The notes beneath the pieces were generated by a model that was not told the origin of the DNA, made no database searches, and was given only the letters and a program-made list of their open reading frames with translations. Position numbers and translations under genes: made by a program. Of a stretch of DNA of 64,000 bases, positions 36,565-53,908 are shown piece by piece; within the stretch, counting starts at the first letter, position 1; each line of letters opens with the position of its first letter. Source of the DNA: Roseimicrobium gellanilyticum. Lineage in GTDB: Bacteria > Verrucomicrobiota > Verrucomicrobiia > Verrucomicrobiales > Verrucomicrobiaceae. Location: contig NZ_QNRR01000001.1 in NCBI RefSeq assembly GCF_003315205.1, positions 310,001 through 374,000 on the forward strand, written 5' to 3'.

Positions 36565-37380
36565 ATGGGCAATTTCTTTCCTCGCTGGAGCAACTGGGTG
36601 CCGCTGCAAATCGCAGTCTGCCTCGGGTTTTTGGTGGTGGGTGCGGTCGTTGGCGCGACCTACTATTTCACGCCGAAGTACACGCGTGTGGGTTACGAGC
36701 CGACTCAGCCAGTTCCCTTCTCGCACAAGCAGCACGTCGGCGAGCTCGGTCTCGACTGCCGTTACTGCCATTCCTACATCGAGCAGTCCAGCCACGCGAA
36801 CGTTCCCACGAACCAGACCTGCTACAACTGCCACGGCCCGGACAAGGCGCAGGTGAAGAAGGACAGCCCCAAGCTGGAGATGGTGCGCAATGCTGACAAG
36901 GACGGCCATCCCATCCAGTGGACCAAGGTTCACAAGGCGCCTGACTACGTGTACTTCAACCATAGCGTCCACCTTGCCCGCGGCGTCTCCTGTGTGAGCT
37001 GTCATGGCCAGGTCAATGAGATGGAAGTCGTGAAGCATGCCGAGCCGCAGAGCATGGGCTGGTGCCTTGACTGCCACCGCGAGCCTGAAAACAAGCTTCG
37101 CCCGCTCGACCAGATTACCAATCTGAACTACAAGCCCGAAGACCTCGGCCGCGAGCAGTTCTACAAGGGGCTTCAAGACAAGGGCGCCAAGGTCGAGGAT
37201 CTTGCGCAGGTCATTCTTGGTGACAAGAAGGCTGAATCCCTCCCTGGCGACATCAGCGGCATCGTGGCCCTCGCCGAAAAGACTTACGGACCCAAGGTGA
37301 CGCAGAAAGAGGTCGGCACCCAGCTCAAGCACAACTGGCGCATCACCCCGCCGGAAGATTGCACCGCCTGCCACCGCTAA
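36565..37380 (+). CDS. actA: Alternative complex III subunit A, pentaheme cytochrome c
   Basis: The 271-residue protein has one N-terminal membrane helix (VPLQIAVCLGFLVVGAVVGA) and five CxxCH heme sites (CRYCH, CYNCH, CVSCH, CLDCH, CTACH), the normal count for ActA. It carries electrons in the periplasmic arm of ACIII, the quinol:cytochrome c oxidoreductase that replaces the bc1 complex. It is the first gene of the plus-strand supercluster, 24 nt before actB. There is no strong ribosome-binding site, but the start is fixed by the membrane helix. Confidence 0.95.
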   Translation: MGNFFPRWSNWVPLQIAVCLGFLVVGAVVGATYYFTPKYTRVGYEPTQPVPFSHKQHVGELGLDCRYCHSYIEQSSHANVPTNQTCYNCHGPDKAQVKKDSPKLEMVRNADKDGHPIQWTKVHKAPDYVYFNHSVHLARGVSCVSCHGQVNEMEVVKHAEPQSMGWCLDCHREPENKLRPLDQITNLNYKPEDLGREQFYKGLQDKGAKVEDLAQVILGDKKAESLPGDISGIVALAEKTYGPKVTQKEVGTQLKHNWRITPPEDCTACHR

Positions 37381-37404: not shown

Positions 37405-40400
37405 ATGAAACGCATCTGGAACCATCCCGAAGTGAAATCCGATCGCCGCTACTGGCGTAGCCTCGGTGAATATCAGCAGACGCCTGAATTCACGGAGAAG
37501 CTCGGTCGCGAGTTCGATCCTGGACTCGCCAAGGGGGAAAATGAAGGGGAAGGCGAAACCCGCCGTGACTTCATGAAGATGGTTGGCGGTATTGCCGCCA
37601 TGGCCGGTCTGGCGAGTTGCCGCCGCCCCGTCGAGAAGATTCTTCCCTTTACCAAGCACGTCGAGTGGATCATCCCCGGCAAGGCGCTGCTGTATGCCAC
37701 TTCGATGCCTCGTCCCTGGGGTGCGACGCCGATGGTCGTGGTCACGCATGAAGGTCGTCCGACCCACTTGCAGGGCAACCCGCACCATCCCGGTGGCGGT
37801 GGCCTTGATATCTTTGCTCAGGCTTCCGTGCTGGACCTGTACAACGACAGCCGCATCAAGCATGTCTCCTACAAGAAGAAGGAGCACTCCTGGGCTGAGT
37901 TTCAGAAGAACATCCGCAAGTGGAATGAGAACGAATGGAGCAAGACGGGCGGTGAAGGCCTGGCCATTCTGACGAGTCCAAGTTCCTCCCCTACGCGCAC
38001 CGGGCTGTATCAGGATCTTGCCAAGAAATATCCCAAGGCGAAGGTGTTTGTGTACAGCCCTGCGGCTTCCGCTGGTGAAGCGGCCGCGGTGAAGGCCGGT
38101 CTCGGTGAGAACGTGCAGCTGGTGCCGAACTTCGAAAAGGCCGAGCGTATCTTCTCCCTCGATAGCGACTTCCTTGGTCTTGATGCCTCGTCCGACAGTG
38201 GCACGAAGCAATTCATGAAGTGGCGCGGTCCCTCCAAGAAGGAGGACCAGATGAATCGCCTCTATGTGCTGGAAAACCGCTACACCCTCACGGGTGGCAT
38301 TGCGGATCACCGCCTGCCGGTGGCAGCCAGCCTGATTCCCCAAGCCGCCGCCGTGCTCGCTGAAGAGCTTGGCAAGGCCCTTGGTAACGCTGCTCTTTCC
38401 CAATCCGCTTCGGCTCTGGCTGCAGGTGTGAGCGAAGACCTGCGCAAGTGGATCGCCATCGCCGCAAAGGATCTCGCCGAGCAGAAGGGCAAGTCCCTCG
38501 TGCTTGCGGGTGCTCGTCAGGGTGATGCGGTGCAAGCCCTCGTGCTCAGCATGAATCAGGCGCTCGGTGCCTTTGGCGCCACGCTCGACACCTTCACGGT
38601 GGATGCGGTGAAGTCCGCGGGCGGCATTGCCGAACTCGTGACTGACATCAAGGCCAACAAGGTCAAGCAGCTTGTCGTTACTGCGGAGACGGACCCTGCG
38701 TATGACGTTCCCGGGTTTGAAGAAGCCGTAAAGGCGACCACGAACATGAGCGTGGTGCAGCTCGCGCTTCGTCCGAACTACACCAGCCGTATTTCCGGTT
38801 GGGTGCTTCCCGCGGCGCACTACCTCGAGTCCTGGGGTGATGCTCGCTGCACGAATGGCACCTACGGCATCACGCAGCCGATGATTCAGCCGCTCTTCGG
38901 TGGCGCTTCGGAAATCGAACTTCTGCTGGCGATGCTTGGCCGCAAGCGCATCGGCCCGGCTCCTGAACCTGCTCCGGCCGCTGCTGCTGCACCCGCGGAT
39001 CCCAAGGCCGCTCCCGCTCCCGCGCCTGCCCCGGCTCCTGCTGTTGCAGAATCCGACCCTGCTTATGAGGCTGTGAAGGCCACCTTTGCGAAGCTCGCGG
39101 GTGGGTGGAACGAGGAAAAGTGGAACATCACCCTGCGTGACGGTTTCCTCGCAGGCTCCGCCGCGACGAAGGCTGCCGCCTCCGTGAATGTCGGTGCCCT
39201 CGGTGGCCTTGTCGCCGCTGCCAAGCCTGCCTCCGCTCCGACGAAGGAAGCTTTTGAAGTCGTCCTCACTGCAGACGCCAGTGTCTTTGACGGTCGTTAC
39301 ACCGATAACGCCTGGCTGCAGGAAGCTCCGGATCCCATCACCAAACTGACTTGGGACAACGCCGCCTGGCTCAGTGTCCGCACATTCCGCGACCTTGGTC
39401 TGAAGAACGACGGTGACATGATCAAGGTCTCCGTGAATGGCAAGGAGCTGAAGCTCGCTGCCGTGCAGTGCCCCGGTCATGCACACAACTCCGTGACCAT
39501 CCCGCTCGGCTACGGCCAGAAGGTGGGAAGTGCCGTTGGCAAGGATCGCGGCTTCAACGCCTACCCGCTGCGCAACAGCACGAGTGAGTTCATCCTGACC
39601 GGCGCCAAGGTCGAGAATGCCAATGAGCATTACGAGCTGGCCATCACGCAGGAGAATTACACCATGGAAGCCCGCGCGCAGGTGCGCGAAGGTTCCAAGA
39701 CCCGCTTTGATGCGGATGAAGACTTCGCCGCGACCGAGGGCATGGACTCCCACATCCCGCCGGTAATGACCCTGTACAAGGGCCGCGTGGGCAAGAAGAC
39801 CGAAGAGAACCCGAACGGTTTCGATTACGAGAACGAGCACCAGTGGGGCATGGTCATTGACCTCTCCAAGTGCCTCGGCTGCTCCGCCTGCATTGTGGCC
39901 TGCCAGAGCGAGAACAACATCGCGGTGGTCGGCAAGGAACAGGTGCGCATGGGGCGCGTGATGCAGTGGATCCGCATGGACCGCTACTTCTCCACCAGCG
40001 ACGGTGTTTCCGAAGATCCGAGCCTTGAAGAGCTGGACAATCCGGAAATGGTCAGCCAGCCGGTGTCCTGCCAGCAGTGTGAAGCTGCTCCGTGCGAAAC
40101 GGTCTGTCCGGTGAACGCCACGGTGCATACCGAAGACGGTCTCAATGCGATGGCCTACAACCGCTGCATCGGTACCCGCTACTGCGCGAACAACTGCCCG
40201 TATACCGCACGTCGTTTCAACTTCTTCGATTGGAACAAGCGCAATCCGTTCATCAAGACGGAAGTCCTTGGCGTCAAGATGAACAACCTGAAGGCTGGCC
40301 CGTTGGGCGAAAGGGCTCCGCAGGAAGTGCAGCAGCTTCAGAAGAATCCGAATGTCACTGTGCGCATGCGTGGTGTCATCGAGAAGTGCACCTACTGCGT

Positions 40401-40722
40401 GCAGCGTCTTGAAGAGGCGAAGATCCGCCAGCGTCGTATCGCGAAGGATGATGCCACCAAGCTGCGTGTGCCCGATGGTCATCTCAAGGTGGCCTGCCAG
40501 GCCGGTTGCGCCGCGGACGCCATCACCTTCGGTGACCTTGCCAATCCGGAAAGTGACGTGGTGAAGGCCAAGGCCAACCCGCGCAACTACGAAGTGCTGA
40601 AGTACATCGGCACGCGTCCCCGCACGAGCTACCTCGCGCGCATTCGCAACGTGAACGAAGAACTTCTCAAGCTCGACACCCGCGCCCGCAAGGCAGGCGA
40701 AGCCAGCAAGTACAACATCTGA
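37405..40722 (+). CDS. actB: Alternative complex III subunit B, molybdopterin-oxidoreductase-like/iron-sulfur protein
   Basis: The 1105-residue protein has a twin-arginine-type signal (TRRDFMKMVGGIAAMAGLASC, ending in a lipobox-like LASC) around residues 51-71. An MPT-oxidoreductase-like domain follows that in ActB lacks the cofactor, and the iron-sulfur domain spans about 810-1060. The cluster cysteines are CLGCSACIVACQ, CQQCEAAPCETVCPVN, CIGTRYCANNCPY and CTYCVQRL...CQAGC, enough for three 4Fe-4S clusters and one 3Fe-4S or fourth cluster. B1 and B2 are fused, as in many Bacteroidetes. A Pro/Ala-rich linker of about 35 residues (near 515-550) interrupts the first domain and is unusual. Confidence 0.95.
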   Translation: MKRIWNHPEVKSDRRYWRSLGEYQQTPEFTEKLGREFDPGLAKGENEGEGETRRDFMKMVGGIAAMAGLASCRRPVEKILPFTKHVEWIIPGKALLYATSMPRPWGATPMVVVTHEGRPTHLQGNPHHPGGGGLDIFAQASVLDLYNDSRIKHVSYKKKEHSWAEFQKNIRKWNENEWSKTGGEGLAILTSPSSSPTRTGLYQDLAKKYPKAKVFVYSPAASAGEAAAVKAGLGENVQLVPNFEKAERIFSLDSDFLGLDASSDSGTKQFMKWRGPSKKEDQMNRLYVLENRYTLTGGIADHRLPVAASLIPQAAAVLAEELGKALGNAALSQSASALAAGVSEDLRKWIAIAAKDLAEQKGKSLVLAGARQGDAVQALVLSMNQALGAFGATLDTFTVDAVKSAGGIAELVTDIKANKVKQLVVTAETDPAYDVPGFEEAVKATTNMSVVQLALRPNYTSRISGWVLPAAHYLESWGDARCTNGTYGITQPMIQPLFGGASEIELLLAMLGRKRIGPAPEPAPAAAAAPADPKAAPAPAPAPAPAVAESDPAYEAVKATFAKLAGGWNEEKWNITLRDGFLAGSAATKAAASVNVGALGGLVAAAKPASAPTKEAFEVVLTADASVFDGRYTDNAWLQEAPDPITKLTWDNAAWLSVRTFRDLGLKNDGDMIKVSVNGKELKLAAVQCPGHAHNSVTIPLGYGQKVGSAVGKDRGFNAYPLRNSTSEFILTGAKVENANEHYELAITQENYTMEARAQVREGSKTRFDADEDFAATEGMDSHIPPVMTLYKGRVGKKTEENPNGFDYENEHQWGMVIDLSKCLGCSACIVACQSENNIAVVGKEQVRMGRVMQWIRMDRYFSTSDGVSEDPSLEELDNPEMVSQPVSCQQCEAAPCETVCPVNATVHTEDGLNAMAYNRCIGTRYCANNCPYTARRFNFFDWNKRNPFIKTEVLGVKMNNLKAGPLGERAPQEVQQLQKNPNVTVRMRGVIEKCTYCVQRLEEAKIRQRRIAKDDATKLRVPDGHLKVACQAGCAADAITFGDLANPESDVVKAKANPRNYEVLKYIGTRPRTSYLARIRNVNEELLKLDTRARKAGEASKYNI

Positions 40723-40742
40723 TTTCCTGACCCTTATCCGTC

Positions 40743-42212
<1,470 letters not shown>

Positions 42213-42238
42213 TCACCCAGCGCACGAGGAAACCAATC

Positions 42239-42796
42239 ATGGCGAAGACCACCCTCAAACGAGTACACGGCTACCTGGCGGAGTTTGAAAGCGCCTCGGA
42301 CGTGTATCATGCATCCGAGAAGATCCGCGACGCGGGCTTCCAGCGCTGGGACGTGCACTCCCCGTTCCCCATCCACGGCCTCAATGAAGCCATGGGTGTG
42401 AAGCGTTCGTCGCTTCCCTTCTTTGTGTTCTTTGGCGGAGCTACGGGCACGCTGACGGCCTTCCTTCTTGCGTTCATCACGCAGGTGGAAATCTACCCCA
42501 CGGTGGTGCAGGCGAAACCGGCGAACATCTTCACCACGCCGGCATTCTTCCCCATCATGTTCGAGCTGACGATTCTGTTCTCGGCGTTCACCACCCTGTT
42601 TGGCTGCTTCGCCTTCATGGGCCTGCCCCGTCTGAACCATCCGCTCTTCGCCTCGAAGCAGTTCAAGAAGTTCTCGGATGACGGCTTCTTCATCTGCATC
42701 GAAGCGCGCGACCCCAAATTCCATCAGGCTGAGACCAAGGCGCTCCTTGAGGAGATTGGCGGCAAGAACATCGAACTGGTGGAGGACGAACTCTAA
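42239..42796 (+). CDS. actD: Alternative complex III subunit D (DUF3341)
   Basis: The 185-residue protein opens with the DUF3341 soluble part (VHGYLAEFESASDVYHASEK, AGFQRWDVHSPFPIHGLNEA) and has two membrane helices (about 60-82 and 102-125) with a cytoplasmic-looking C-terminal domain (FFICIEARDPKFHQAETKALL). This is the standard ActD. It binds the inner-membrane core of ACIII and has no cofactor. It precedes actE by 18 nt. Confidence 0.93.
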   Translation: MAKTTLKRVHGYLAEFESASDVYHASEKIRDAGFQRWDVHSPFPIHGLNEAMGVKRSSLPFFVFFGGATGTLTAFLLAFITQVEIYPTVVQAKPANIFTTPAFFPIMFELTILFSAFTTLFGCFAFMGLPRLNHPLFASKQFKKFSDDGFFICIEARDPKFHQAETKALLEEIGGKNIELVEDEL

Positions 42797-42814
42797 GAGT
42801 CCCGGGCTCATTCC

Positions 42815-43471
42815 ATGAAATACTTTTTCCTCATCTACATTCTGGTCGCGGTGGCCGTTGTGAGCTTCGCGGGCCTTCGTGGTCACAAGACCGAGAAGAC
42901 TCCGTGGGAAATCTTCCCGGACATGGACCGCCAGGCGAAGGTCAAGTACCAGCGCTCCAGCAATTTCTTTGAAGACGGTCACGCCATGCGCCACCCTGTG
43001 AAGGGCACCATGCCGATCGGTTTCGAAATGCCCAGCAAGCCCGCCAGCCAGGGTTTTGAAAAGCAGGAGTACGGCTTCACCCACGGCACGGGTTATTACT
43101 ACACCGGCAAAGTTGGTGACTTCTATGGCGACGGCTTCCCGAAGGAAGTGGTGCTCGACAATGCGCTGCTCAAGCGCGGCATGGAACGGTACAACATTCA
43201 CTGCGCGATCTGCCATGGCTCCTCCGGCAACGGCAAGGGCATGGTGACGAAGTACACCATGGTGGCTCCCACGGATCTCACCGGGGCTGGCATCGACGAT
43301 CCTGCCAACGCTGCCTACCGTCCCGACGGCAAGATCTACGACGTGATCACCAATGGCTGGAACCAGATGGGCTCCTATGGCGCCAACATCTCCGTGGAAG
43401 ATCGCTGGGCCATCGTGGCCTATGTGCGCACCCTCCAGCACGCTGTGAAGAACCCCGTTTCCGGCAAGTAA
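42815..43471 (+). CDS. actE: Alternative complex III subunit E, monoheme cytochrome c
   Basis: The 218-residue protein is anchored by an N-terminal helix (FFLIYILVAVAVVSFAGLRG) and carries one heme site, IHCAICHGSSGNGKGMV, near residue 130. The likely methionine ligand is in the NGWNQMGSYGANIS region. ActE links the ActA hemes to the exit cytochrome or the oxidase. It lies 18 nt after actD and 19 nt before actF. Confidence 0.93.
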   Translation: MKYFFLIYILVAVAVVSFAGLRGHKTEKTPWEIFPDMDRQAKVKYQRSSNFFEDGHAMRHPVKGTMPIGFEMPSKPASQGFEKQEYGFTHGTGYYYTGKVGDFYGDGFPKEVVLDNALLKRGMERYNIHCAICHGSSGNGKGMVTKYTMVAPTDLTGAGIDDPANAAYRPDGKIYDVITNGWNQMGSYGANISVEDRWAIVAYVRTLQHAVKNPVSGK

Positions 43472-43490
43472 AGGCAACACACCTGTCCGC

Positions 43491-44843
43491 ATGCATCATT
43501 CCCTGACACTCGACGACCTGCCCCGCGACGGAGAGAAGCTGGATCTGGCCAAGATCAGCAAGCTCAACGGCGTCCTGCTCCTGGTGGGCGGCATCGGAGC
43601 GATCATCTCGCTCATCTACCTCTTCGGATTCGCCAATACGAAGGACGAAGCCGGCCATGTGGTGGTCAACCGCCAGGGCGAGTTTGCCTACTCCTGGTTG
43701 TTCGCTTTCTTCTTCTTCTTCACGATCACCTGCGGCGGCATCTTCTGGACCATGCTTCAGCATATCTCCAACTCCGGTTGGAGCGTGGCGGTCCGCCGTC
43801 TGTTTGAAAACCTCGGTGGTGGTGTGAAGTGGATGGCGGTGCTGGCGTTGCCTTTCCCGCTCATCCCTGGCGTGCGTGACTCCCTTTGGGAATGGTATGT
43901 GATTCACAAGGAAGCCGCACACCACGCTCATGAAGCGGGCACCTCCACCAAGGAAGCGCTCCACCACATGGCGGAGTCCAACCATCACCTGCACATCCTC
44001 TACGGCAAGTACGGCTATCTGAACACCACCTTCTGGTACATCCGTGCCTTCCTGTACTTCGCGTTTCTGATCGGCATCATCGGCCTGCTTCGCAAGTGGA
44101 GCATTCAGCAGGACAAGGATGGTGATTTCAAGCACACCTTCCGTTCCCGCGCCCTTTGTGCCTTCCCGCTGCTCTTCTTCGCTCTTGCAGTGACCTTCAG
44201 TGCCGTCGACTGGGTGATGAGCATGGACTACACCTGGTTCTCCACCATGTGGGGTGTCTATATCTTCGCTGGCGGCGCCTGGGGTGCGATGGCCACTTCC
44301 ATCCTGGCGCTCACGTACGTGCGCAGGAATGGTTACCTGCAGAAGGTCGTCTCGGGTGAGCACTACCACCTGATGGGCAAGCTGCTCCTCGCCTTCACCA
44401 TCTTCTGGGCGTACATCGCCTTCAGCCAGTACTTCCTCATCTGGTACGCGAACGTGACGGAAGAAACGCGCTTCTTCCTCCTGCGCAACACCGGCCCATG
44501 GTGGTACCTGAGCAACATCCTCGTATGGGGGCACTTCGTGGCCACTTTCGTGCTCCTTCTCTCCGCCGGTCGCAAAAAGAAGACCCTCAGCATGAACTGG
44601 GTTTGTGCTTGGGTGCTCGTCATGCACCTGGTGGACTGGTACTGGCTTGTCATTCCTGAGCGCGCACCTTCCCTCACGAAGGGTGAGCTTCTTCTCAGCC
44701 CGGGTGCCTGGGTGGGTGACGTCATCGCCTTCCTCACCATCGGCGGACTTGTCGGCTGGGCTTACCTCCGTCGTCTTGCCAAGGCCAGCCTTTATCCCTG
44801 CCGCGACCCGCGCCTGCTGGAGTCCGTGATCGCCACCAACTAG
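43491..44843 (+). CDS. actF: Alternative complex III subunit F, membrane protein
   Basis: The 450-residue protein has about ten membrane helices related to ActC (ITCGGIFWTMLQHISNSGW, FSAVDWVMSMDYTWFSTMWG, LMGKLLLAFTIFWAYIAFSQ, FLIWYANVTEETRFFL). These motifs are typical of ActF, the 'quinol:cytochrome c oxidoreductase quinone-binding subunit 2'. A histidine-rich periplasmic loop (HKEAAHHAHEAGTSTKEALH) near residue 140 is notable. It closes the act part of the cluster, 30 nt before the Pro/Ala-rich protein. Confidence 0.94.
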   Translation: MHHSLTLDDLPRDGEKLDLAKISKLNGVLLLVGGIGAIISLIYLFGFANTKDEAGHVVVNRQGEFAYSWLFAFFFFFTITCGGIFWTMLQHISNSGWSVAVRRLFENLGGGVKWMAVLALPFPLIPGVRDSLWEWYVIHKEAAHHAHEAGTSTKEALHHMAESNHHLHILYGKYGYLNTTFWYIRAFLYFAFLIGIIGLLRKWSIQQDKDGDFKHTFRSRALCAFPLLFFALAVTFSAVDWVMSMDYTWFSTMWGVYIFAGGAWGAMATSILALTYVRRNGYLQKVVSGEHYHLMGKLLLAFTIFWAYIAFSQYFLIWYANVTEETRFFLLRNTGPWWYLSNILVWGHFVATFVLLLSAGRKKKTLSMNWVCAWVLVMHLVDWYWLVIPERAPSLTKGELLLSPGAWVGDVIAFLTIGGLVGWAYLRRLAKASLYPCRDPRLLESVIATN

Positions 44844-44873
44844 TCGTCCGCAAGCGCAGCATCCTTCTTATCC

Positions 44874-45596
44874 ATGTCATCACCCGCGACACAACCACCT
44901 TCCCGTGCACTCACCACCACGCTTGGCGTGCTGGCGGCGATTGCCAGCTTTGCCTTGCTGGCCACGCTGTTCCAGTGGGCCGGCGGCGGCGCTCCTGAGG
45001 ATGTCCGTCATGAGACGGCTCTGAAGAAGAAGGCCGAAGTGCAAAAGGACCAGCACGCTCTCCTTGAAAAGTACGGTCTGGCAGGAAACCCTGACGCTGT
45101 CTTCGCCAAAGCCATCGATGGTCTGAAGACCCGCAAGGAAGGCGCCAGCAAGGTCGTGGTCCCTGGATCGAAGACCGCGCTGGAACAGGCCGCTGCTGCG
45201 ACCCCAGCACCAGCCCCGGCCCCGGCTCCTGCTGCTGACAAGAAGCCTGCTGAACAAAAGGCTCCCGAAGCTCCAGCCCCGACTCCCGCACCAGCTGCGG
45301 AACCGAAGCCTGCTCCGGCTGCCCCAGTCCCGGCTCCAGTCCCCGCCCCAACACCGGCTCCTGAGCCCAAGCCCGCCCCGGCACCTACGCCCGCCGCCGC
45401 GCCCGCTCCCACCCCTGAGCCAGCTTCTGCTCCAGGCAGCCGCGTTGAGCCCCCGCTTCCTACCAAGGAACCCGAGCCCGCACCTGCTGCCCCGGCTCCT
45501 GCAACCGCTCCGGTCCCTGCGACTCCGCCTGCGCCACCGCCCCCCGTTTCTGCTCCTCCGCCGGCTCCCGCTCCCCCCGCACCGAATCCCCAGTAA
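44874..45596 (+). CDS. Single-pass membrane protein with long Pro/Ala-rich tail
   Basis: The 240-residue product has one helix near the N-terminus (LTTTLGVLAAIASFALLATL), a short charged segment (ALKKKAEVQKDQHALLEKYG) and then about 130 residues of Pro-Ala-rich repeats (PAPAPAP, PKPAPAPTP) to the end. A TonB-like periplasm-spanning or disordered tether is the natural reading. It lies between actF and the ccoN-like gene with 24-30 nt gaps, so it is part of the operon and possibly a linker between the ACIII and oxidase modules. The charged segment before the tail resembles the ActF-linked membrane proteins of other clusters only in position. No known family is recognised. Confidence 0.75.
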   Translation: MSSPATQPPSRALTTTLGVLAAIASFALLATLFQWAGGGAPEDVRHETALKKKAEVQKDQHALLEKYGLAGNPDAVFAKAIDGLKTRKEGASKVVVPGSKTALEQAAAATPAPAPAPAPAADKKPAEQKAPEAPAPTPAPAAEPKPAPAAPVPAPVPAPTPAPEPKPAPAPTPAAAPAPTPEPASAPGSRVEPPLPTKEPEPAPAAPAPATAPVPATPPAPPPPVSAPPPAPAPPAPNPQ

Positions 45597-45620
45597 GTTT
45601 TTCCCAAGTATCCACCAACC

Positions 45621-47141
45621 ATGGCGACCACAGACTCGTCCATCTCGAACAGCGACAGCCTGCGCCGCGCGGCCATTGACCGCTCGGTGAAGGGGCCGGT
45701 GCTTTTCCTTTTCGCCAATGCCGCCATGTGGCTGCTGGCCTCGACCGTGATGGGCTTGATTGCCTCCATCAAACTGGTCTCCCCTGACTTCCTGAACTAC
45801 GACTGGCTCTGGTTCCTGAACTACAGCCGTCTTCAGCCCGCTCACATGGCAGCCTTGGTTTATGGCTGGGCCATGCAGGCCGGCCTCGGCGTGGCAGTGT
45901 GGCTTCTGGCCCGTCGCAGTGGTCAGGCCCTTTCAGGTGGCGCTGGCACGATGCTGGTGGCTGGCATCTTCTGGAACGTAGGCGTGACTCTCGGTGTGAT
46001 CGGCATTCTTTCCGGTGCGGGCACTGCTCTCCAGTGGCTGGAGTTTCCCTCCTTCGTCTGGCCGGTGCTGTTGATTCCTTACCTCGTCATTGCGGTGAAC
46101 ATGATTGTGCACTACAACCGCGCGAATCGTCAGCAGGGTTTCCACCTCACTTCCTGGTACCTGCTTGCCGCGCTGCTTTGCTTCCCCTGGATCTTCCTCA
46201 CGGGTAACCTGGTGCTCAACTGCTTCGCCGCTGCCACCCCGATTGGTGCCATCGGTGCCGGTGTCAATGCCTGGTACGTGAGCGCAACCATCATGCTCTT
46301 CTTCGCGCCTCTCGGCCTGGGCGTGTGCTACTACTTCATCCCGAAGATCACCGGTCAGCCGGTGTACAGCTACCAGCTCGCGCAGATTGGCTTCTGGGGC
46401 CTCATCATCCTCGGCGGTTGGAGTGGCTTCCAAAAATACATGGGCGGCCCGGTTCCTTCCTGGACGGCAGCCGTTGGTGGTATGGCGACCATCCTGCTCC
46501 TCGTGCCAGCGGGCATCGTGGCACTGAACCACCACCTCACCACCTCGGGCAAGCACAGCCTCATTGAGACCAGCCCGACCCTGCGCTTCATCTTCGTGGG
46601 TTCCGCCTCGTTCCTTGTGACGAGCGGCATCGCGGCCCTCATCAGCAACTTCTGGACGGGCACGAATTTCCAGTTCACCTACGCGGAATACGGCTACCAC
46701 CTCGCTGCGGTGTACGCCTTCTTCAGCATGACGATGTTTGGCGCCATCTACTACATCACACCGCGTCTCGCCGGTTGTGAGTGGCTCAGCGCCCGTCTTA
46801 TCCGCAATCACTTCTGGTTCTCCGTGTATGGAATCACGGCCCTGGTGGCTTGCATGGTGATTGGTGGTCTTGCCCAGGGGCAGAGCCAGAACAATCCCGA
46901 CAACTGGAACCAGCCCTTCATCGGCAGTGTGATCAATGCGCGTGGCTACCTGGTGGGTCGCGCTCTTGCCTGGGCCTTCATCCTCTGGTCGAACTTCTGG
47001 TTCTTCACCCATCTGGTCTTCATGGTCCTCGGCCTTGGCCGCCGCAGCGTGGCTCCCACCCTGCTGGTGCATGACCATCACGACGAGCGCCCCGCCGCTG
47101 TGCCCGCCCCGACTCATCCCCCGGCTTCCGCGACGGCCTAA
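45621..47141 (+). CDS. CcoN-like (cbb3 oxidase subunit I) protein lacking the CuB site
   Basis: The 506-residue protein has about twelve helices and aligns by eye with CcoN along its length: RLQPAHMAALVYGWAM (heme b ligand His75), CYYFIPKITGQPVYSYQLAQ, TMFGAIYYITPRL and GYLVGRALAW. However, the WYGHNAV motif of CcoN reads WYVSATI, so Ser221 replaces a CuB histidine. WAGPHH reads WSGFQK, so Gln271 and Lys272 replace the other two. Gly265 replaces the tyrosine of the active site. Only one histidine (His360) remains where CcoN has HxH. A low-spin heme b may remain, but oxygen reduction is very unlikely. It sits directly before ccoO-like and cytochrome c genes. An HH pair at 304-305 does not align with the CuB pair. 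Confidence 0.85.
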   Translation: MATTDSSISNSDSLRRAAIDRSVKGPVLFLFANAAMWLLASTVMGLIASIKLVSPDFLNYDWLWFLNYSRLQPAHMAALVYGWAMQAGLGVAVWLLARRSGQALSGGAGTMLVAGIFWNVGVTLGVIGILSGAGTALQWLEFPSFVWPVLLIPYLVIAVNMIVHYNRANRQQGFHLTSWYLLAALLCFPWIFLTGNLVLNCFAAATPIGAIGAGVNAWYVSATIMLFFAPLGLGVCYYFIPKITGQPVYSYQLAQIGFWGLIILGGWSGFQKYMGGPVPSWTAAVGGMATILLLVPAGIVALNHHLTTSGKHSLIETSPTLRFIFVGSASFLVTSGIAALISNFWTGTNFQFTYAEYGYHLAAVYAFFSMTMFGAIYYITPRLAGCEWLSARLIRNHFWFSVYGITALVACMVIGGLAQGQSQNNPDNWNQPFIGSVINARGYLVGRALAWAFILWSNFWFFTHLVFMVLGLGRRSVAPTLLVHDHHDERPAAVPAPTHPPASATA

Positions 47142-47159
47142 ACTTTCCCTCCACGTAGC

Positions 47160-47852
47160 ATGACTGGTTCCCGCAAGTTTCTTTTCGGCCTGGCCGGCGC
47201 CTTTGGCGTTCCCTGGCTGCTGCTCGTCATCATTCCGGTGATCAAAGCGCAAAAGCTCACCCCTGAAGCCTACGACAAGGATCGTGACGGCATCGAGGGT
47301 GTGTACCCCTCCACCTCGATCGACCGCCAGGGTCAGCTCGTGTACATCTCGGAAGGTTGCGCCCAGTGCCACACGCAGATGATTCGTCCCAGCTTTGTCG
47401 GTATTCTGGACGGCTGGAAGAAAGGCTGGGGCAGTGATCAAAGCGACCAGCCCAAGCATGCCGTTCGCCCCAGCAAGTGGGAAGACTACATGGGTGAGCC
47501 GGTGGCTCCGCTCGGCATTCAGCGCAATGGTCCCGACCTTGCCAATTATGGCTACCGTGCCCCCAAGGAGCGCGCCGCCATCCACCTGAAGCTGTATGCG
47601 CCGCGTGCTTCGAAGACGAATGCCTGGAGCATGATGCCCTCCTACCGTCACCTCTACAAAGTGAAGGCGATTGAAGGCAACGGTTCCTCGCACGCCCTGG
47701 AATTCCCCGAGGACATGGCGAAGGAACTCAAGCCCAAGAAGGGTTTCGAAGTGGTGCCCACCCCCGCGGCGGAGCAACTGGTCGACTATCTGCTGTCACT
47801 CAAGAAGGATGCACCCGTGCCCGGCGAAGTCGTGGCTGAGGACGCGAAATAA
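47160..47852 (+). CDS. CcoO-like membrane-anchored monoheme cytochrome c
   Basis: The 230-residue protein has an N-terminal helix (FLFGLAGAFGVPWLLLVIIP) and the CcoO-type heme motif EGCAQCHTQMIRPSFV near residue 65, followed by the conserved GPDLANYG and a methionine-ligand region SMMPSYRHLY. Canonical CcoO brings electrons to the CcoN active site. Here its partner lacks that site, so it may relay electrons between ACIII and the aa3 oxidase instead. It lies 18 nt after the ccoN-like gene and 10 nt before the next cytochrome gene. Confidence 0.9.
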   Translation: MTGSRKFLFGLAGAFGVPWLLLVIIPVIKAQKLTPEAYDKDRDGIEGVYPSTSIDRQGQLVYISEGCAQCHTQMIRPSFVGILDGWKKGWGSDQSDQPKHAVRPSKWEDYMGEPVAPLGIQRNGPDLANYGYRAPKERAAIHLKLYAPRASKTNAWSMMPSYRHLYKVKAIEGNGSSHALEFPEDMAKELKPKKGFEVVPTPAAEQLVDYLLSLKKDAPVPGEVVAEDAK

Positions 47853-47862
47853 TCATTGAGAC

Positions 47863-48588
47863 ATGAACGAAAACGCTCCCCAGAATTTTGATTCCACCGA
47901 CCTTGACCGTCTGCATGCAGCGGTGAAGCGCGAGAAGCCGGACGTGCGTCCTGGCGCGGAACCTTCGCCCCTTTGGGTCTTCATCGCCACCATGGTGGCC
48001 ATGGTCTTTGGCGGTGGTTACCTCGGTGCCTATGTCGGCGGCTTCGGTTTCGACCGGAATTCTCCCTTCGATGGCACTCCCAAGGATGTTCGCCCTATCA
48101 TTCAGACGGAAGGTGGAGAACTTGATCCCTTCCAGTTCGCCATGAAAAAGGGCGCTGGTGTGTACAACATCTGCGGTGGCTGCCACGGCGCCGCGGGTAC
48201 TGGCCAGCCCGGTGCCATTCCTCCGCTCGCCGGCTCCGAATGGGTGCTCGGTGGCACAGAGCGTACTACTCGCGTGATTCTTCACGGCCTCGGCGGCGCG
48301 GTGCAGGTCAAGGGTGTTACCTACAATGGTGTGATGCCTCCGCAGGGTGCGCTTTCCGACAAGGAAATCTCCTACGTGCTCACCTACATCCGCAACTCCT
48401 GGGGCAACTCCGGCCACATGGTCACTCCGGAAATGGTGAAGAAAGTGCGTGAAGAAACCGCCACCCATGCGGCTGCCTACACCCAAGCCGAGCTCGATGC
48501 TTTTAAGGACAAGGACATCGAAGGCCCGATTCCTGCCGGTCCTGGCGCTACTGTAGCCCCCGCCGCTGCTCCCGCTCCTGCCAAGTAA
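47863..48588 (+). CDS. Membrane-anchored monoheme cytochrome c, CcoP-like
   Basis: The 241-residue protein has a cytoplasmic N-terminal segment, one helix (WVFIATMVAMVFGGGYLGAY) and a cytochrome c domain with YNICGGCHGAAGTGQPG near residue 103 and a methionine region YNGVMPPQG. Unlike canonical diheme CcoP, it has only one CxxCH. The C-terminus is Ala/Pro-rich (TVAPAAAPAPAK). It completes a ccoN-ccoO-cytochrome trio just before the aa3 oxidase genes and could be the direct donor to CuA. Confidence 0.88.
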   Translation: MNENAPQNFDSTDLDRLHAAVKREKPDVRPGAEPSPLWVFIATMVAMVFGGGYLGAYVGGFGFDRNSPFDGTPKDVRPIIQTEGGELDPFQFAMKKGAGVYNICGGCHGAAGTGQPGAIPPLAGSEWVLGGTERTTRVILHGLGGAVQVKGVTYNGVMPPQGALSDKEISYVLTYIRNSWGNSGHMVTPEMVKKVREETATHAAAYTQAELDAFKDKDIEGPIPAGPGATVAPAAAPAPAK

Positions 48589-48635
48589 CCTTTTCCGAAA
48601 CCCACTTACCAAGTACAGGTCAGCTCCTTTATCTC

Positions 48636-50564
48636 ATGAGCTCTGCGACTGCCACTCACGACCACTCTCACGCCGATCATGCGCACGAGCATGATCATCA
48701 CCAGCAGAGCTGGCTCTACAAGTACATCTTCTCGACCGACCACAAGGTCATCGGCATCCAGTACGGATTTACCGCGATGGCGTTCCTGCTGTTCGGTTTC
48801 TTCCTGATGATGGTCATGCGCTGGAGCATTGCCTTCCCGGGCCAGCCGATGCCGATCTTCGGTGCCATCATGGGTGAGCGCTGGGCTCCTGGCGGTGTGG
48901 TGACTCCTGAGCTCTACAACATGTTCGGTGCCATGCACGGCACCATCATGGTGTTCCTCGGCATCGTGCCCCTTGGTTTCGCTGCTTTCGGCAACTACGT
49001 GATGCCCCTGCAAATCGGTGCGGTGGACATGGCCTTCCCGAAGCTGAACGCCTGGAGCTACTGGCTCTATTTCATCGGCGGCCTCATGATGATGATCAGC
49101 TTCTTCCTTCCGACGGGCGCTGCCCAGGTGGGTTGGACGAACTACTCACCGTTGGCCACCACGGCCCAAATCGACGTGAAGGACCTGTTCTGGACTGGCC
49201 AGACGCAGTGGCTCATGGCGATGGTAATGCTCATCTCCTCCTCGCTGCTCGGTGCTGTGAACTTCATCACCACCCTGCTGAACCTGCGCTGCAAGGGCAT
49301 GACCTGGATGCGCATGCCGTTCTTCTGCTGGGCGATGCTCGTGACCGCCTTCCTGCTGCTCCTGGCTTTCCCCCCTCTGGAAGTGGCCGCCATTCTGCAG
49401 CTCTTTGACCGTCTCTTCGGTTCCAGCTTCTTCCTGCCCACTGGACTTGTGGAAGCCAACCGTCACCTTGACATCGCCGGCGGTGGTAGCCCTCTCCTGT
49501 ACCAGCACTTGTTCTGGTTCCTGGGTCACCCTGAGGTGTACGTGCTCATCCTTCCGGCCATCGCCATTGTGGCGGAGGTCATCCCGACGAACATTCGCCG
49601 TCCGCTGTGGGGCCATCGCACGATGATCTACGCAGCCCTCGTGCTGGGCTTCCTGAGCTTCATCGTGTGGGCACACCACATGTACCTCACCGGCATGGGC
49701 TCGGTGGTGAGCACCTTCTTCCAGATCACCACGGTGTTGATCTCGGTGCCCTCGGTGATCCTGCTGACCTGCCTCATGATCTCCCTGTGGGGTGGTTCCA
49801 TCCGCTTCAATACGGCGATGCTGTTCGCATGCGCGTTCCTCCCGATGTTCGGTATCGGTGGTCTCACCGGTCTGCCGCTGGCCTTCAGCTACATCGACCT
49901 CTTCCTGCACGACACCTACTATGTGATCGGTCACTTCCACTACGTGGTGGCGCCGGGTACCATCTTTGGTCTCTTTGCAGGCATCTACCACTGGTACCCC
50001 AAGATCACGGGACGTTTCATGAATGAAACTGCCGGTCGCTGGCACTTCTGGCCCTCCCTGGTGTTCATGAACCTGCTGTTCGCGCCGATGTTGGTGCAGG
50101 GTATGGCGGGCTTCCATCGCCGCTGGCACGATGGTGGTGCTGCCTTTGAAGGCACGACCCACGGCAGCATGTGGATCTCCGAACTCGTCGGGGGTGTGTT
50201 CAAGCTCTTTGGCTTCCACATGTATGATGGCAAGGGTAACGACATCACGGACACCCTGATGATTCTCAACCCGCTGATGTCCTTCGCAGCATGGGGACTC
50301 GCCCTGTCGCAGGTTCCTTTCATCATCAATCTCTTCCTGAGCATCAAGGGTGGCAAGAAGGTGACCTCGGACAATCCTTGGCAGTCCACCACGCTTGAGT
50401 GGGCAACACCGACGCCTCCCGGACACGGCAACTTCCTTGAGGATCCGGTCGTCTACCGCCAGCCCTATGAGTACAGCGTCCCCGGCGCCGAAACGGACTA
50501 CACACCCTCGTGGCTTCCTGAAGGTGCCAAGGTGGAGGACAAACTCACCCACGCAAAGCACTGA
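48636..50564 (+). CDS. ctaD: Cytochrome c oxidase subunit I (aa3-type, A family)
   Basis: The 642-residue protein has all catalytic motifs: FWFLGHPEVYVLIL (CuB His and cross-linked Tyr, with the D-channel Glu) near 297, the CuB pair VWAHHMYLTGM near 345, and HDTYYVIGHFHYVVAPG (heme a3 and heme a ligands) near 424. It is the real terminal oxidase of the cluster, reducing oxygen and pumping protons. The first 25 residues are a striking histidine-rich segment (HDHSHADHAHEHDHHQQ). Codons and spacing are like the rest of the operon. Confidence 0.96.
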   Translation: MSSATATHDHSHADHAHEHDHHQQSWLYKYIFSTDHKVIGIQYGFTAMAFLLFGFFLMMVMRWSIAFPGQPMPIFGAIMGERWAPGGVVTPELYNMFGAMHGTIMVFLGIVPLGFAAFGNYVMPLQIGAVDMAFPKLNAWSYWLYFIGGLMMMISFFLPTGAAQVGWTNYSPLATTAQIDVKDLFWTGQTQWLMAMVMLISSSLLGAVNFITTLLNLRCKGMTWMRMPFFCWAMLVTAFLLLLAFPPLEVAAILQLFDRLFGSSFFLPTGLVEANRHLDIAGGGSPLLYQHLFWFLGHPEVYVLILPAIAIVAEVIPTNIRRPLWGHRTMIYAALVLGFLSFIVWAHHMYLTGMGSVVSTFFQITTVLISVPSVILLTCLMISLWGGSIRFNTAMLFACAFLPMFGIGGLTGLPLAFSYIDLFLHDTYYVIGHFHYVVAPGTIFGLFAGIYHWYPKITGRFMNETAGRWHFWPSLVFMNLLFAPMLVQGMAGFHRRWHDGGAAFEGTTHGSMWISELVGGVFKLFGFHMYDGKGNDITDTLMILNPLMSFAAWGLALSQVPFIINLFLSIKGGKKVTSDNPWQSTTLEWATPTPPGHGNFLEDPVVYRQPYEYSVPGAETDYTPSWLPEGAKVEDKLTHAKH

Positions 50565-50633
50565 AGTTCCTGATACCCGGCAGCATCGCGACCGTCTCCG
50601 TCTCAATCTGACAACCTGCTTCTCTCTCTTCTG

Positions 50634-52145
50634 ATGGAAATCCCATACACCGTAAAAGCCAGACCGGACACCGGGCTGTGGAATGCCAAGATTGGCGTCT
50701 GGCTCTTCCTCGCCTCCGAAGTCATGCTCTTCGGCGGCCTGTTCTCCGCCTACATCTTCCTGCGCCTTGCGCCAGAAGGTCCCTGGCCGGTGCAGGTGCT
50801 CACGGTGAGCTGGGGATTCTGGAACACCCTGATCCTGATTCTATCCTCCGTGACCGTGCTTCAGGCATGGGTCGCGCTGAAGCTGCGGAAGTACAATCTC
50901 TTCCGCATCTGGATGGCCCTCACCATCTTCTGTGCTTTCGCCTTCCTCGGCATCAAAAGCATCGAGTACAATGACAAGTTCCATCACTACGGTCTGCGCC
51001 TGCATGACGGCTCGGTGATGGAAGGCCACTTGCCTCACGAGGCAGACGGTTCCCACGGCAAGTACAAGATCACGTTCTCCGACGTGACCACGGTGACCCT
51101 GGCCAGTCGCCCCATGGACATGGGTCTCTTCGGCATCAGCTTCTTCCACAACGGCTCGGACGGAGAGTTCTTGAAGTACATCACGGAAGGTGAACCCAAG
51201 TTCAAGACCGAAGACGGCGCGGAGATCACCCTTGATGAAGCCAAGGTGAAGGAATTGATGGACCACGCCCGCAGCAAGGAACACAAGGACGAGAAGGGCG
51301 TTTGGAAGCCCATCGCCTCGGTGAAGCTCACGGCGGTGAAGCCCCTGAAATTCACGATCCCTGCCGGCAAGATGTTCGACAACTCCTGGACGGAGAAGAA
51401 TGCCTACCTTCGTGACGGCACTGTCCTCGAAGGCAAGCTCACGGATGACGCTGTGAAGCTCGAGGTCGACAAGCTGGACTTCCGCTGGCTCTTCCCCCAC
51501 CACGAGAAGGACGAGGAGAAGGCTTTTGCCGCCGCCCTCAACGCAGATCTTTGGAAGCACATTCCCAATGGGGCTGAATTGAAGGAGAAGTTCAAGACGC
51601 ACCGTGCCCACCATCTGGATCACTTCCACAAGAAGCACGATGCTGATCTTGGCGGCAAGGCGGTTCCGAATCCCATGAACAACGACGACTTCGTGCGCAA
51701 CACCTATTCGGTGCTGCATGCGGAGCTGGAGAAGTTCTCTGCGGGTGGTGCCACGCATGAACCTGCAAAGCATTCCAGCAATCAGGACGCCAATGGCACT
51801 GCCTCCCGGGTGGCTGCTCTGGAACAAGGCGCTGCGCATGATGCCTCCGGCGGTGGTCACCACGACCATCCCACGGTCACTGTGCCCCACAAGGAAGTGG
51901 CCCACTTCTCCAACTTCACCCCGAAGTGGCATAACTACTACGCCATCTACTTCTGCATCACCGGCCTTCACGGTTTGCACGTTCTTGCTGGCGCGCTCGT
52001 CCTCTCTTATTTCCTCCTCTTCGGCAAGAAGCTGTATGACAAGGATCCCGAGCACATGGCAAACCGTGTGGAAGTAGGCGGCCTCTTCTGGCACTTTGTG
52101 GATCTGGTGTGGATCTTCCTTTTCCCGCTGCTGTATCTCCTCTAG
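50634..52145 (+). CDS. ctaE: Cytochrome c oxidase subunit III with large soluble insertion
   Basis: Residues 1-117 hold the first three helices (LWNAKIGVWLFLASEVMLFG, SWGFWNTLILILSSVTVLQA), and residues about 428-503 hold the last two (YYAIYFCITGLHGLHVLAGA, GLFWHFVDLVWIFLFPLLYL), both normal subunit III. Between them lie about 310 hydrophilic residues absent from typical 190-270-residue subunit III proteins. The insert contains two similar beta motifs (LHDGSVMEGHL and LRDGTVLEGKL), helical charged stretches and a histidine-rich end (GGGHHDHPTVTVPHKEVAH). The frame is intact throughout, so it is not a frameshift product. The insert's role is unknown. It lies between ctaD and the subunit IV gene. 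Confidence 0.9.
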   Translation: MEIPYTVKARPDTGLWNAKIGVWLFLASEVMLFGGLFSAYIFLRLAPEGPWPVQVLTVSWGFWNTLILILSSVTVLQAWVALKLRKYNLFRIWMALTIFCAFAFLGIKSIEYNDKFHHYGLRLHDGSVMEGHLPHEADGSHGKYKITFSDVTTVTLASRPMDMGLFGISFFHNGSDGEFLKYITEGEPKFKTEDGAEITLDEAKVKELMDHARSKEHKDEKGVWKPIASVKLTAVKPLKFTIPAGKMFDNSWTEKNAYLRDGTVLEGKLTDDAVKLEVDKLDFRWLFPHHEKDEEKAFAAALNADLWKHIPNGAELKEKFKTHRAHHLDHFHKKHDADLGGKAVPNPMNNDDFVRNTYSVLHAELEKFSAGGATHEPAKHSSNQDANGTASRVAALEQGAAHDASGGGHHDHPTVTVPHKEVAHFSNFTPKWHNYYAIYFCITGLHGLHVLAGALVLSYFLLFGKKLYDKDPEHMANRVEVGGLFWHFVDLVWIFLFPLLYLL

Positions 52146-52190
52146 TCCAGCGCTCTTACCTGTTCCGTACAAATTTTAGACTGATTCAAC

Positions 52191-52538
52191 ATGGCACACG
52201 ACCATCACGACCACGACAGCCCTGAAGCGATCCGCAAGGCATCGAATATGATCTGGATCGTTGGACTTGTCCTTGTATTCGGCACGGTTGTTACCGTGTG
52301 GGCAAGAGACTGGGATATGGGTACCCGCGGTAAAAACATTGCCTTCGGCATGCTCATCGCAACCATCAAAGCCTCGTTCGTGGGACTGATCTTCATGCAC
52401 TTGAAGAGCGAGCGTGGCCTGATCTACAAGTTCCTCTTCTTCACGGTCATCTTCGCCATCGGGTTGTTTGTGCTGACGTACCTCGCGTGGGCTGACCCGC
52501 TGCATTCGCACATCATTCCGGCCGTCGAGCACGGTTAA
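52191..52538 (+). CDS. Cytochrome c oxidase subunit IV (prokaryotic, COX4_pro type)
   Basis: The 115-residue protein has three membrane helices (MIWIVGLVLVFGTVVTVWA, GKNIAFGMLIATIKASFVGL, IYKFLFFTVIFAIGLFVLTY) and the family feature KASFVGLIFMHLK. It begins with a histidine/aspartate-rich start (MAHDHHDHD). The small subunit stabilises the oxidase. It lies 45 nt after subunit III. Confidence 0.88.
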   Translation: MAHDHHDHDSPEAIRKASNMIWIVGLVLVFGTVVTVWARDWDMGTRGKNIAFGMLIATIKASFVGLIFMHLKSERGLIYKFLFFTVIFAIGLFVLTYLAWADPLHSHIIPAVEHG

Positions 52539-52559
52539 TAAGTCACTTCTCTTCACGCG

Positions 52560-52769: not shown

Positions 52770-52780
52770 CCCCATCTGAC

Positions 52781-52981
52781 ATGGACCTTATCACCCCGCT
52801 GCTTTCCTGCGCCACCTGCATGCCAGACCCTTCTTCGGAAGTGTCGAAGGCTGCCAGCATGTCCATCATGTTCCTCGGTGTGATCATCCTTGGGATGATG
52901 GGGCTCTTCATCAAAATCATGTTCAACTTTGCCCGCCGTGAGCGGGAGTTCGAAAAGTCCTCTCCTGCGCAATCATCATGA
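52781..52981 (+). CDS. Single-helix small membrane protein of the oxidase operon
   Basis: From ATG 52781 the 66-residue product reads MDLITPLLSCATCMPDPSSE, then one helix (MSIMFLGVIILGMMGLFIKI) and a charged tail (FARREREFEKSS). A CxxC pair lies near the N-terminus, before the helix and without the heme histidine, so it might bind copper or form a disulfide. Its stop overlaps the start of subunit II by ATGA (52978-52981), strong support for translation. Confidence 0.7.
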   Translation: MDLITPLLSCATCMPDPSSEVSKAASMSIMFLGVIILGMMGLFIKIMFNFARREREFEKSSPAQSS

Positions 52982-53805
52982 ATCTGGATCCTATCGTCGC
53001 TGCCATCCCTGCCCTTAACAAGATTCTGGGTATCCCGGAGCTTGCTTCCGAGCATGGAGAAATGGTCGATCACATGCTGGAACTGGTGCACTGGTTCATG
53101 CTGGTTCTGTTCATCGGCTGGAGCACTTTCCTGGTGTTTGTGTTCACCAAGTTCCGCAAGGACAAGAGCGCCAAGGCGGACTACGTCGGTGTGCGTGGTC
53201 ACGCGTCGACCCACATTGAAATCGGCGTGGTGATTGTGGAGGCCATTCTGCTCCTCGGGTTTGCCTTTCCCCTCTGGGCACAGCAGTCCGTGGGCTATCC
53301 CACCGGCAAGGAAGTGGTGAAGGTGCGCGCCATGGGTGAGAAGTTTAAGTGGAACTTCCAGTACGCTGGCCAGGATGGCACCCTCGGTGGGTACGCTCTC
53401 GCAAACATTGGAAACCCCGCCACGAATGAAATGGGGCTCGACGCCAAGGACCCGAATGGCAAGGATGACTTCGTGAAGGGTGCTACTCTGACCCTCCCCG
53501 TCGGCCGCCCGGTGATCATCGACGTGACCAGCAAGGACGTGATTCACAACCTCGCGCTCGTCCCCATGCGTGCCGCGCAGGACGCCACCCCTGGCGTGAA
53601 CGGTCACCTCTGGTTCACCCCCACAAAGACGGGCTCATGGGACATCATCTGCGGTCAGCTTTGTGGCGCCGGTCACAGTGGCATGCGCGGCACTCTGGAA
53701 GTGATTCCGCAGAAGGACTTTGACGAATTCATGAAGGAAGGCAGCGAAGGCGCCCTCAAGAATGCTGCTGCTGCCCCGGCCGCAGCCCCGGCTGCCGCGC
53801 ACTAA
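52978..53805 (+). CDS. ctaC: Cytochrome c oxidase subunit II (CuA-containing)
   Basis: The 275-residue protein has two N-terminal helices (MLVLFIGWSTFLVFVFTKF, IGVVIVEAILLLGFAFPLWA) and a periplasmic cupredoxin domain with the CuA ligands VIHNLALVP and IICGQLCGAGHSGMRG near residue 224. It accepts electrons from cytochrome c and passes them to subunit I. No heme is attached, so it is not a caa3 type. An Ala/Pro-rich tail ends the protein. Its position after subunits III and IV differs from the usual II-I-III order. Confidence 0.95.
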   Translation: MNLDPIVAAIPALNKILGIPELASEHGEMVDHMLELVHWFMLVLFIGWSTFLVFVFTKFRKDKSAKADYVGVRGHASTHIEIGVVIVEAILLLGFAFPLWAQQSVGYPTGKEVVKVRAMGEKFKWNFQYAGQDGTLGGYALANIGNPATNEMGLDAKDPNGKDDFVKGATLTLPVGRPVIIDVTSKDVIHNLALVPMRAAQDATPGVNGHLWFTPTKTGSWDIICGQLCGAGHSGMRGTLEVIPQKDFDEFMKEGSEGALKNAAAAPAAAPAAAH

Positions 53806-53853
53806 ATTGCGAGGTGGTGCCTGCTGCGCTGTCCCGGCATTTTCTGTCTCTCG

Positions 53854-53885
53854 AATGTCCCGCACTGTTGACTGTGCGGGACATT
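53854..53885. terminator. Strong hairpin after the oxidase genes
   Basis: AATGTCCCGCAC/GTGCGGGACATT forms a perfect 12-bp stem with an 8-nt loop, 48 nt after the subunit II stop and 24 nt before ctaA. There is no T-run after it, so it may attenuate expression or protect mRNA rather than terminate fully. Confidence 0.5.
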
Positions 53886-53908
53886 TCGCCTGAGGCCAGC
53901 GCACGCAC

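Follow-up and report, generated by a model that had tools for sequence, protein, structure and literature searches.

The closest described systems link ACIII either to an A-type oxidase or to an oxidase of the cbb3 type. In passages of PMC5928083 and PMC8552683, the bridge between ACIII and its oxidase is a sixth ActA haem in F. johnsoniae and a haem on subunit II in R. marinus. For the verrucomicrobial methanotrophs, passages of PMC8498564 count a cbb3 oxidase among three complex IV types, place its genes beside those of ACIII and report a C-type oxidase with ACIII only in these methanotrophs and in Opitutaceae. The ACIII-adjacent cbb3 oxidase is said to fit the high affinity for O2 that strain SolV shows (PMC6688271, in its section 11), and a cbb3 oxidase is also listed in passages of PMC10205796, PMC11102522 and PMC8170126. 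What is new here is a C-family oxidase subunit that has repeatedly been emptied; among the titles, abstract openings and passages of openly licensed PMC papers that the searches brought up, none describes a haem-copper subunit I that has lost its site and is encoded beside ACIII.

The window, i.e., the whole stretch of 64,000 nucleotides that was analysed, carries genes in the order actABCDEF, a Pro/Ala-rich frame, a CcoN homologue (N) and two cytochromes c (O and P), followed by aa3 genes. Throughout, "intact" proteins have all seven ligands present and "site-less" proteins do not; both names were coined in this analysis. The features are as follows.

36565..37380, plus strand: ActA, pentahaem cytochrome c of ACIII (five CXXCH and no sixth; position in the act order)
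37405..40722, plus strand: putative ActB, Fe-S/molybdo-like ACIII subunit (open reading frame; label from size and order)
40743..42212, plus strand: ActC, NrfD-like membrane subunit (DsrP-type match, E 1.7e-12, below cut-off; order)
42239..42796, plus strand: ActD (PF11821 ActD, E 2.6e-59)
42815..43471, plus strand: ActE, monohaem cytochrome c (PF13442, E 1.4e-12; one CXXCH)
43491..44843, plus strand: putative ActF, NrfD-like membrane subunit (label from order, without an NCBIfam match; homologue upstream of the N-like gene in 64/64 loci)
44874..45596, plus strand: Pro/Ala-rich protein, hydrophobic near its N-terminus, encoded between ActF and N (no Pfam or NCBIfam match)
45621..47141, plus strand: N, site-less CcoN homologue (PF00115, TIGR00780, alignments, tree, AF2 and structure searches)
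45843..45845, plus strand: codon of His75, the sole kept former haem-b ligand (alignments; His in 16/16 rows of families f1 and f2)
46281..46283, plus strand: codon of Ser221, former CuB His (alignments)
46413..46415, plus strand: codon of Gly265, former active-site Tyr (alignments)
46431..46436, plus strand: codons of Gln271-Lys272, former CuB His pair (alignments)
46695..46703, plus strand: codons of Tyr359-His360-Leu361, former HxH with the ligands of haem b3 and haem b (alignments)
47160..47852, plus strand: O, CcoO-like monohaem cytochrome c (PF02433 FixO, E 7.8e-16; CAQCH, Met159)
47863..48588, plus strand: P, CcoP-like monohaem cytochrome c (PF00034, E 1.8e-9; TIGR00782 below cut-off; CGGCH, Met158)
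48636..50564, plus strand: CoxA, A-type (aa3-like) subunit I (PF00115, E 1.6e-128; TIGR02891, 536 bits against a cut-off of 670.75)
50634..52145, plus strand: CoxC-like subunit III with a long insert (NCBIfam matches at 18-118 and 426-503, below cut-offs)
After the CoxC-like gene and before CoxB: small frame, putatively CoxD-like
52978..53805, plus strand: CoxB, subunit II with CuA motif and without haem c (TIGR02866, E 8.1e-36, below cut-off; motif)

Matches to the Pro/Ala-rich protein (44874-45596) were seen in loci L074, L075 and L113, and an insert of about 300 residues separates the first and last matched parts of the CoxC-like protein (50634-52145). A promoter and terminator scan of 36000-54000 returned one promoter-like site (3.7 in shuffles) and 19 terminator-like sites (14.3 in shuffles, sd 4.0). 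The source genome has three PF00115 matches, namely N, the adjoining CoxA and a ligand-complete cbb3 subunit encoded elsewhere (G000:C2, the 841-aa frame L002).

The open reading frame of N (45621-47141, plus strand) is uninterrupted and encodes 506 aa, which match PF00115 with E 2.9e-41 and the ccoN model TIGR00780 with E 2.1e-38. The TIGR00780 score of 132 bits lies below the curated cut-off of 583, as does the score of 254 for a ligand-complete act-linked relative (L055). Ligand columns were taken from HMMER alignments to solved CcoN chains, in which the key stretches are ungapped and with which the family alignments agree; the ligand roles in CcoN and the motifs of ba3-type oxidases and NOR are general knowledge. 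In N, WYVSATI replaces WYGHNAV, with Ser221 at a CuB His; WSGFQK replaces WAGPHH, with Gln271 and Lys272 at the CuB His-His pair; and Gly265 stands in the active-site Tyr column. The original prediction had proposed these replacements and the retention of His75, along with a full-length frame free of stops and frameshifts and a CcoO-like cytochrome downstream, and the alignments, the reading frame and the FixO match of O with its one CXXCH bear it out. It erred in holding that one histidine of the HxH pair remains as His360. The HxH columns are 359 (Tyr) and 361 (Leu), both histidines being gone, and His360 sits between them in a column where near relatives vary among H, Q, E and D. His75 alone is thus left of the seven ligand positions.

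Of the features that mark a cbb3 oxidase, the fold and sequence kinship and the haem-c partners are present in N, while the three CuB histidines, the active-site tyrosine and the HxH pair are absent. Because these defining features were looked for and found to be missing, N should not be classed with the cbb3 oxidases; judging from its sequence, it has almost certainly lost oxidase activity. The original prediction had allowed that His304 and His305 might form a substitute CuB site. This candidate was rejected: the pair is usual in relatives with a complete CuB site and is not conserved in the site-less lineage (His305 in 44% of the 16 f1 and f2 rows). A further histidine, His464 (codon 47010-47012), lies in a column that is Asn in nearly all intact relatives and His in all 18 rows of f1, f2 and f6; among the best 80 of 501 named-record loci it is His in 66, Gln in 12 and a gap in two. 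The helix list of the AF2 prediction puts His464 near the end of the last helix, which we take from the membrane topology to be the cytoplasmic end, and this predicted position rules it out as a haem partner of His75.

The AF2 model of N, based on 68 alignment rows, reached a pLDDT of 91.5 and a pTM of 0.91. Foldseek and VIA searches with it placed cbb3 chains at the top (3mk7_D, Z 48.0, 2.2 A over 448 residues), and its matches to cNOR NorB (Z 41-43) were lower in both Z and identity than those to the cbb3 chains. The family f4 protein L046, 25% identical to N, gave a model with pLDDT 87.4 and Z 47.7 to 3mk7_D; by sequence alone it matched a single PDB chain, a cbb3 subunit, with E 3e-5. As modelled, N is a full-length protein with the CcoN fold, and a common fold is no proof of function.

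The survey covered 288 genomes of Verrucomicrobiota, which were sampled from a larger group, and 90 gave a match. The act-linked N family was present in 65 genomes, all of the window's class, of which 21 have all seven ligands and 44 do not. The suggestion in the original prediction that the degenerate site be sought beside act genes in other Verrucomicrobiota was rewarded. Site-less rows of the tree keep at most two of five active-site positions (two in L007 and L008, a single one or none in the rest), and none has the tyrosine or the histidine of column 271. A genome scan across all phyla gave 501 confirmed stretches, the best 80 of which are all Verrucomicrobiota records; these lean towards near relatives, and part of them probably duplicate genomes already in the tree (e.g., L192 and G215:C48). 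None of these best 80 of 501 loci is intact, ten have two CuB histidines and 73 have a CoxA frame on the same stretch. A sequencing artefact or pseudogene is excluded by the 44 of 65 act-linked genomes, by the site-less state of all 80 listed loci (the best 80 of 501) and by purifying selection. The original prediction had coupled an artefact with the existence of intact family members; such relatives do exist, in other lineages, and only the artefact falls away. A group of common soil and water bacteria retains a full-size oxidase core subunit without its oxygen-reducing centre.

Several members of the survey stand apart. In L007 and L008, both near relatives, two of the three CuB histidines survive and the tyrosine and HxH pair are lost, as is also seen in some named loci; the two histidines are perhaps a leftover or a copper/zinc site. 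Family f6 (L081:8688-10172 and L093:1270-2754) has lost the active site and kept both low-spin haem b ligands, His75 and His361, and is the likeliest place to find a CcoN protein with haem b alone. Two small genomes of the same order, G021 and G033 (f2, g6), are without any PF00115 match, and 20 g6 genomes are without a match to the N protein. Family f24 (L047-L050, L073, L088 and L089) comprises a separate ligand-complete C-family-like subunit that mostly measures about 460 aa and has an O-like partner. Six of its seven loci, L049 being the exception, also carry on that stretch a frame of about 600 aa in which CXXCH occurs seven times.

The tree was built from 89 PF00115 rows with the seven ligand columns left out, and set the 65 act-linked rows beside 24 others, all ligand-complete. 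The act-linked rows form one clade (support 100/100), within which the site-less label needs three changes, all of them forced by starred branches: one for clade A (25 rows of f1, f2, f4, f6, f11 and f15, the window included), one for clade B (18 rows, comprising f5, f9 and L042 of f3) and one for L036 (f3) alone. Several site-less rows are long-branched, and three changes were still needed after removal of 14 rows, mostly of that kind. Forcing all 44 site-less rows into one clade was 84.5 log-likelihood units worse (p-AU 0.0006, in a test that shares the model's long-branch pull), and a single ancient loss was rejected accordingly. One loss followed by two regains of all ligands also amounts to three changes and is implausible. 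The site was apparently lost at least three separate times.

A permutation test set the five active-site positions against the full set of 62 positions that do not vary among the 21 intact act-linked rows and 14 CcoN. The fraction of active-site positions kept was 0.07 in f1 and f2, 0.12 in clade B and 0 in f6, in f11 with f15 and in L036, as against 0.70, 0.63, 0.83, 0.69 and 0.87, respectively, of the 55 other invariant positions (p 0.0004, 0.003, 0.0002, 0.0009 and 0.0002). L036 is the cleanest case, with none of five active-site positions and 87% of the 55 others. In Methylacidiphilaceae (f4), where the whole protein has diverged, the fractions were 0.20 and 0.35 (p 0.28). By this measure, decay is targeted to the active site rather than general in five of the six groups, f4 being the exception. 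Retention of family-specific residues relative to residues common to CcoN, taken as a test for a docking surface, showed no difference (p 0.09-0.78) and if anything the reverse.

For dN/dS, site-less pairs sharing at least about 80% identity gave 0.05-0.11 in f1, f2 and f6, 0.15-0.19 in f4 and 0.16-0.29 in clade B, and the intact act-linked pairs 0.05-0.08, the latter from three unsaturated pairs with four dS-saturated pairs uncounted. On these estimates N is under purifying selection, with constraint eased in clade B and f4 because dN/dS there exceeds that of the intact pairs. The selected, non-oxidase role that had been suggested for N gains from this range (0.05-0.29 overall) and from its gene context: ActF lies upstream of N on the same strand in 64/64 loci, within 0.9 kb in 63 of them and at 7.3 kb in L090. 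The gap in L090 perhaps corresponds to a nos cluster that a passage of PMC11102522 places within the act genes of M. caldifontis IT6.

The two cytochromes were retained along with N. One CXXCH each was found in O and P at all 43 site-less loci examined; among intact loci, O has it in 21/21 and P in all 19 (of 21) for which a P gene could be located. In P, 42/44 site-less rows retain the axial Met, the exceptions being one misaligned row and one cut by a contig end. The axial Met of O is present in 21/21 intact rows versus 29/44 site-less rows, its replacements being Cys in 9/9 f2 rows (L012, L014, L015, L016, L018 and L077-L080), His, Arg or Lys in five clade B rows and Ala in one f1 row. Exchange of an axial Met for Cys should lower the haem potential. 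In cbb3 oxidases, CcoP carries two haems, and electrons pass in the order P-O-b-b3, the O haem handing them to haem b. A varied O Met beside a constant P Met would be expected if the O haem no longer feeds haem b and electrons bypass it via P; with the O Met replaced in 15/44 site-less rows, O is not a standard relay throughout the family. Another gene for a P-like monohaem cytochrome was observed in L077, L078, L080, L043, L012 and L014-L016, in the first four of which it lies between ActF and N.

The neighbouring oxidase is a less regular partner. Within the stretch read, CoxA lies downstream of N in 14 of the 17 clade A loci that could be assessed (the window included; eight more have too little downstream sequence), in none of 18 in clade B, in 0/1 for L036 and in one of 21 intact loci. 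Gene order makes putative docking of N to ACIII and aa3 plausible; since clade B has no coxA nearby, docking to an adjoining aa3 oxidase cannot be general. An A-type match, defined here by a score rule as a PF00115 match of at least 400 bits, was found in all 38 site-less genomes searched (of 44) and in 17/21 intact ones. Co-occurrence with a second oxidase is confounded by descent, and such an oxidase is also present in most intact genomes. G001 and G146 have no PF00115 match besides the intact act-linked gene, an argument for the intact form being a working oxidase. The window's ActA has five haems and its CoxB no haem c; both reported bridges are therefore absent, and ActE, O or P must reach CuA.

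We consider it reasonably probable that N, no longer catalytic, serves as a membrane scaffold for a cytochrome c relay linked to ACIII. The ancestor would have been an ACIII-N-O-P unit, a cbb3-type (C-family) oxidase linked to ACIII, which survives in ligand-complete form in other Verrucomicrobiota. Such an intact ancestor may have formed an ACIII-cbb3 supercomplex, with electrons passing from quinol through ACIII, the haems c of P and O and haem b to haem b3/CuB. Once another oxidase had taken over O2 reduction, the O2 site would have been free to go; N would have lost CuB, the tyrosine and haem b3, and in most lineages haem b too, and would have stayed as a membrane anchor holding O and P against ACIII in a physical complex. 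Electrons would then exit via a haem c, most likely that of P, and their acceptor would lie outside N. The adjoining aa3 oxidase may mostly fill this place in Verrucomicrobiales and Methylacidiphilaceae, and an oxidase encoded elsewhere may do so in clade B.

The original prediction had instead seen N as a haem-b electron or quinol module, i.e., as a protein that still binds one low-spin haem b and shuttles electrons between quinol/ACIII and the cytochromes. His75, which is His in all 16 f1 and f2 rows and in 73 among the best 80 of 501 named loci, is what such a module would need, and f6 retains it together with His361 after the active site has gone. The second low-spin ligand, however, is lost from the window's lineage, column 361 never being His in those 16 rows or among the best 80 of 501 named loci (one gap). 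His75 is itself Phe in seven among the best 80 of 501, absent in 17/18 clade B rows and 5/5 f4 rows and gone from most site-less lineages other than the window's; the one small lineage that keeps the bis-His pair is f6. No other conserved histidine looks positioned as a replacement, His464 lying at a predicted cytoplasmic helix end. N has probably lost haem b as well, and a haem-b shuttle is unlikely.

A passive relic, kept only for operon assembly or translation and with no part in electron flow, might look as N does in that no new motif is common to all site-less lineages, that dN/dS rises to 0.29 in clade B and that several site-less rows have long branches. Yet the protein is full length with the predicted fold, 63-87% of the invariant non-ligand positions are kept outside f4, the partners retain their haem-c motifs in 43/43 site-less loci and act linkage is kept in all, which makes a mere relic quite improbable. 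There is very little to recommend the idea that N has taken on transport or proton conduction in a form coupled to ACIII: Tyr237, Tyr238, Pro241 and Lys242, presumably near the former proton path, are kept in f1, f2 and nearly all clade B rows, but they are common to all 14 CcoN and, Tyr237 excepted, mostly lost in f4, and nothing new was seen conserved across the three losses. Extending the scaffold reading, it is an evenly balanced question whether the core of a haem-copper oxidase has, more than once, been stripped of its metal centres and become a structural adaptor. A CcoN frame without haem would then join ACIII and the two cytochromes c in a stand-alone quinol:cytochrome c module for different oxidases, with at least three origins. 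We know of no other haem-copper family reused as a non-redox scaffold. The losses amount to a natural experiment carried out three times over, with the catalytic centre removed and the wiring kept, and the site-less loci offer a way to ask what ACIII needs for reaching an oxidase.

The finding bears directly on the methanotrophs. Genomes G152 and G042 were taken to be Methylacidiphilum kamchatkense Kam1 and M. fumariolicum SolV, having four and three pmoA matches, the same counts as in Table 1 of PMC6688271. Their act-linked N proteins (L092 and L046, respectively) read SESSHFV at the seven columns, the only His standing at one CuB column. G042 has six PF00115 matches: two A-type (by score, one also by motif, the other being the CoxA that adjoins N), two ba3-type (best PDB matches 1ehk and 1xme), one NorB-type (3o0r) and the site-less N, with no other C-type oxidase. 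The other PF00115 matches of G152 are known as scores only. Passages of published accounts of these relatives still treat the site-less protein as a working oxidase; the ACIII-adjacent cbb3 should not be given as the source of a high affinity for O2 in SolV. Nothing on the expression of the SolV N-locus genes was found in passages of PMC3404531 and PMC4210602.

Set against known systems, N is closest to the cbb3 oxidase CcoN/CcoO/CcoP (PDB 3mk7, 8smr), its best structural and sequence match, with which it shares the fold, the N-O-P order and a single-haem O; it differs in the missing CuB ligands, tyrosine and HxH pair, in a P with one haem and in its act linkage. The related fold of cNOR NorB is recognisable, and N is without its metal-site histidines. 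The Methylacidiphilum "cbb3 next to ACIII" (passages of PMC6688271 and PMC8498564) has the same locus type and the same missing site (L046, L092), whereas its protein is far more diverged, has lost His75 and was published as a high-affinity oxidase. As in the F. johnsoniae and R. marinus ACIII-aa3/caa3 supercomplexes, ACIII genes adjoin A-type oxidase genes in the window; unlike those systems, which in the passages cited above have a haem bridge (sixth ActA haem or subunit II haem), it has neither bridge and carries an N-O-P module in between. The act-linked C-family oxidases of other Verrucomicrobiota (21 rows, e.g., L034, L055 and L085) form one clade with N (100/100) and share the act-N-O order, but all seven of their ligand positions are intact.
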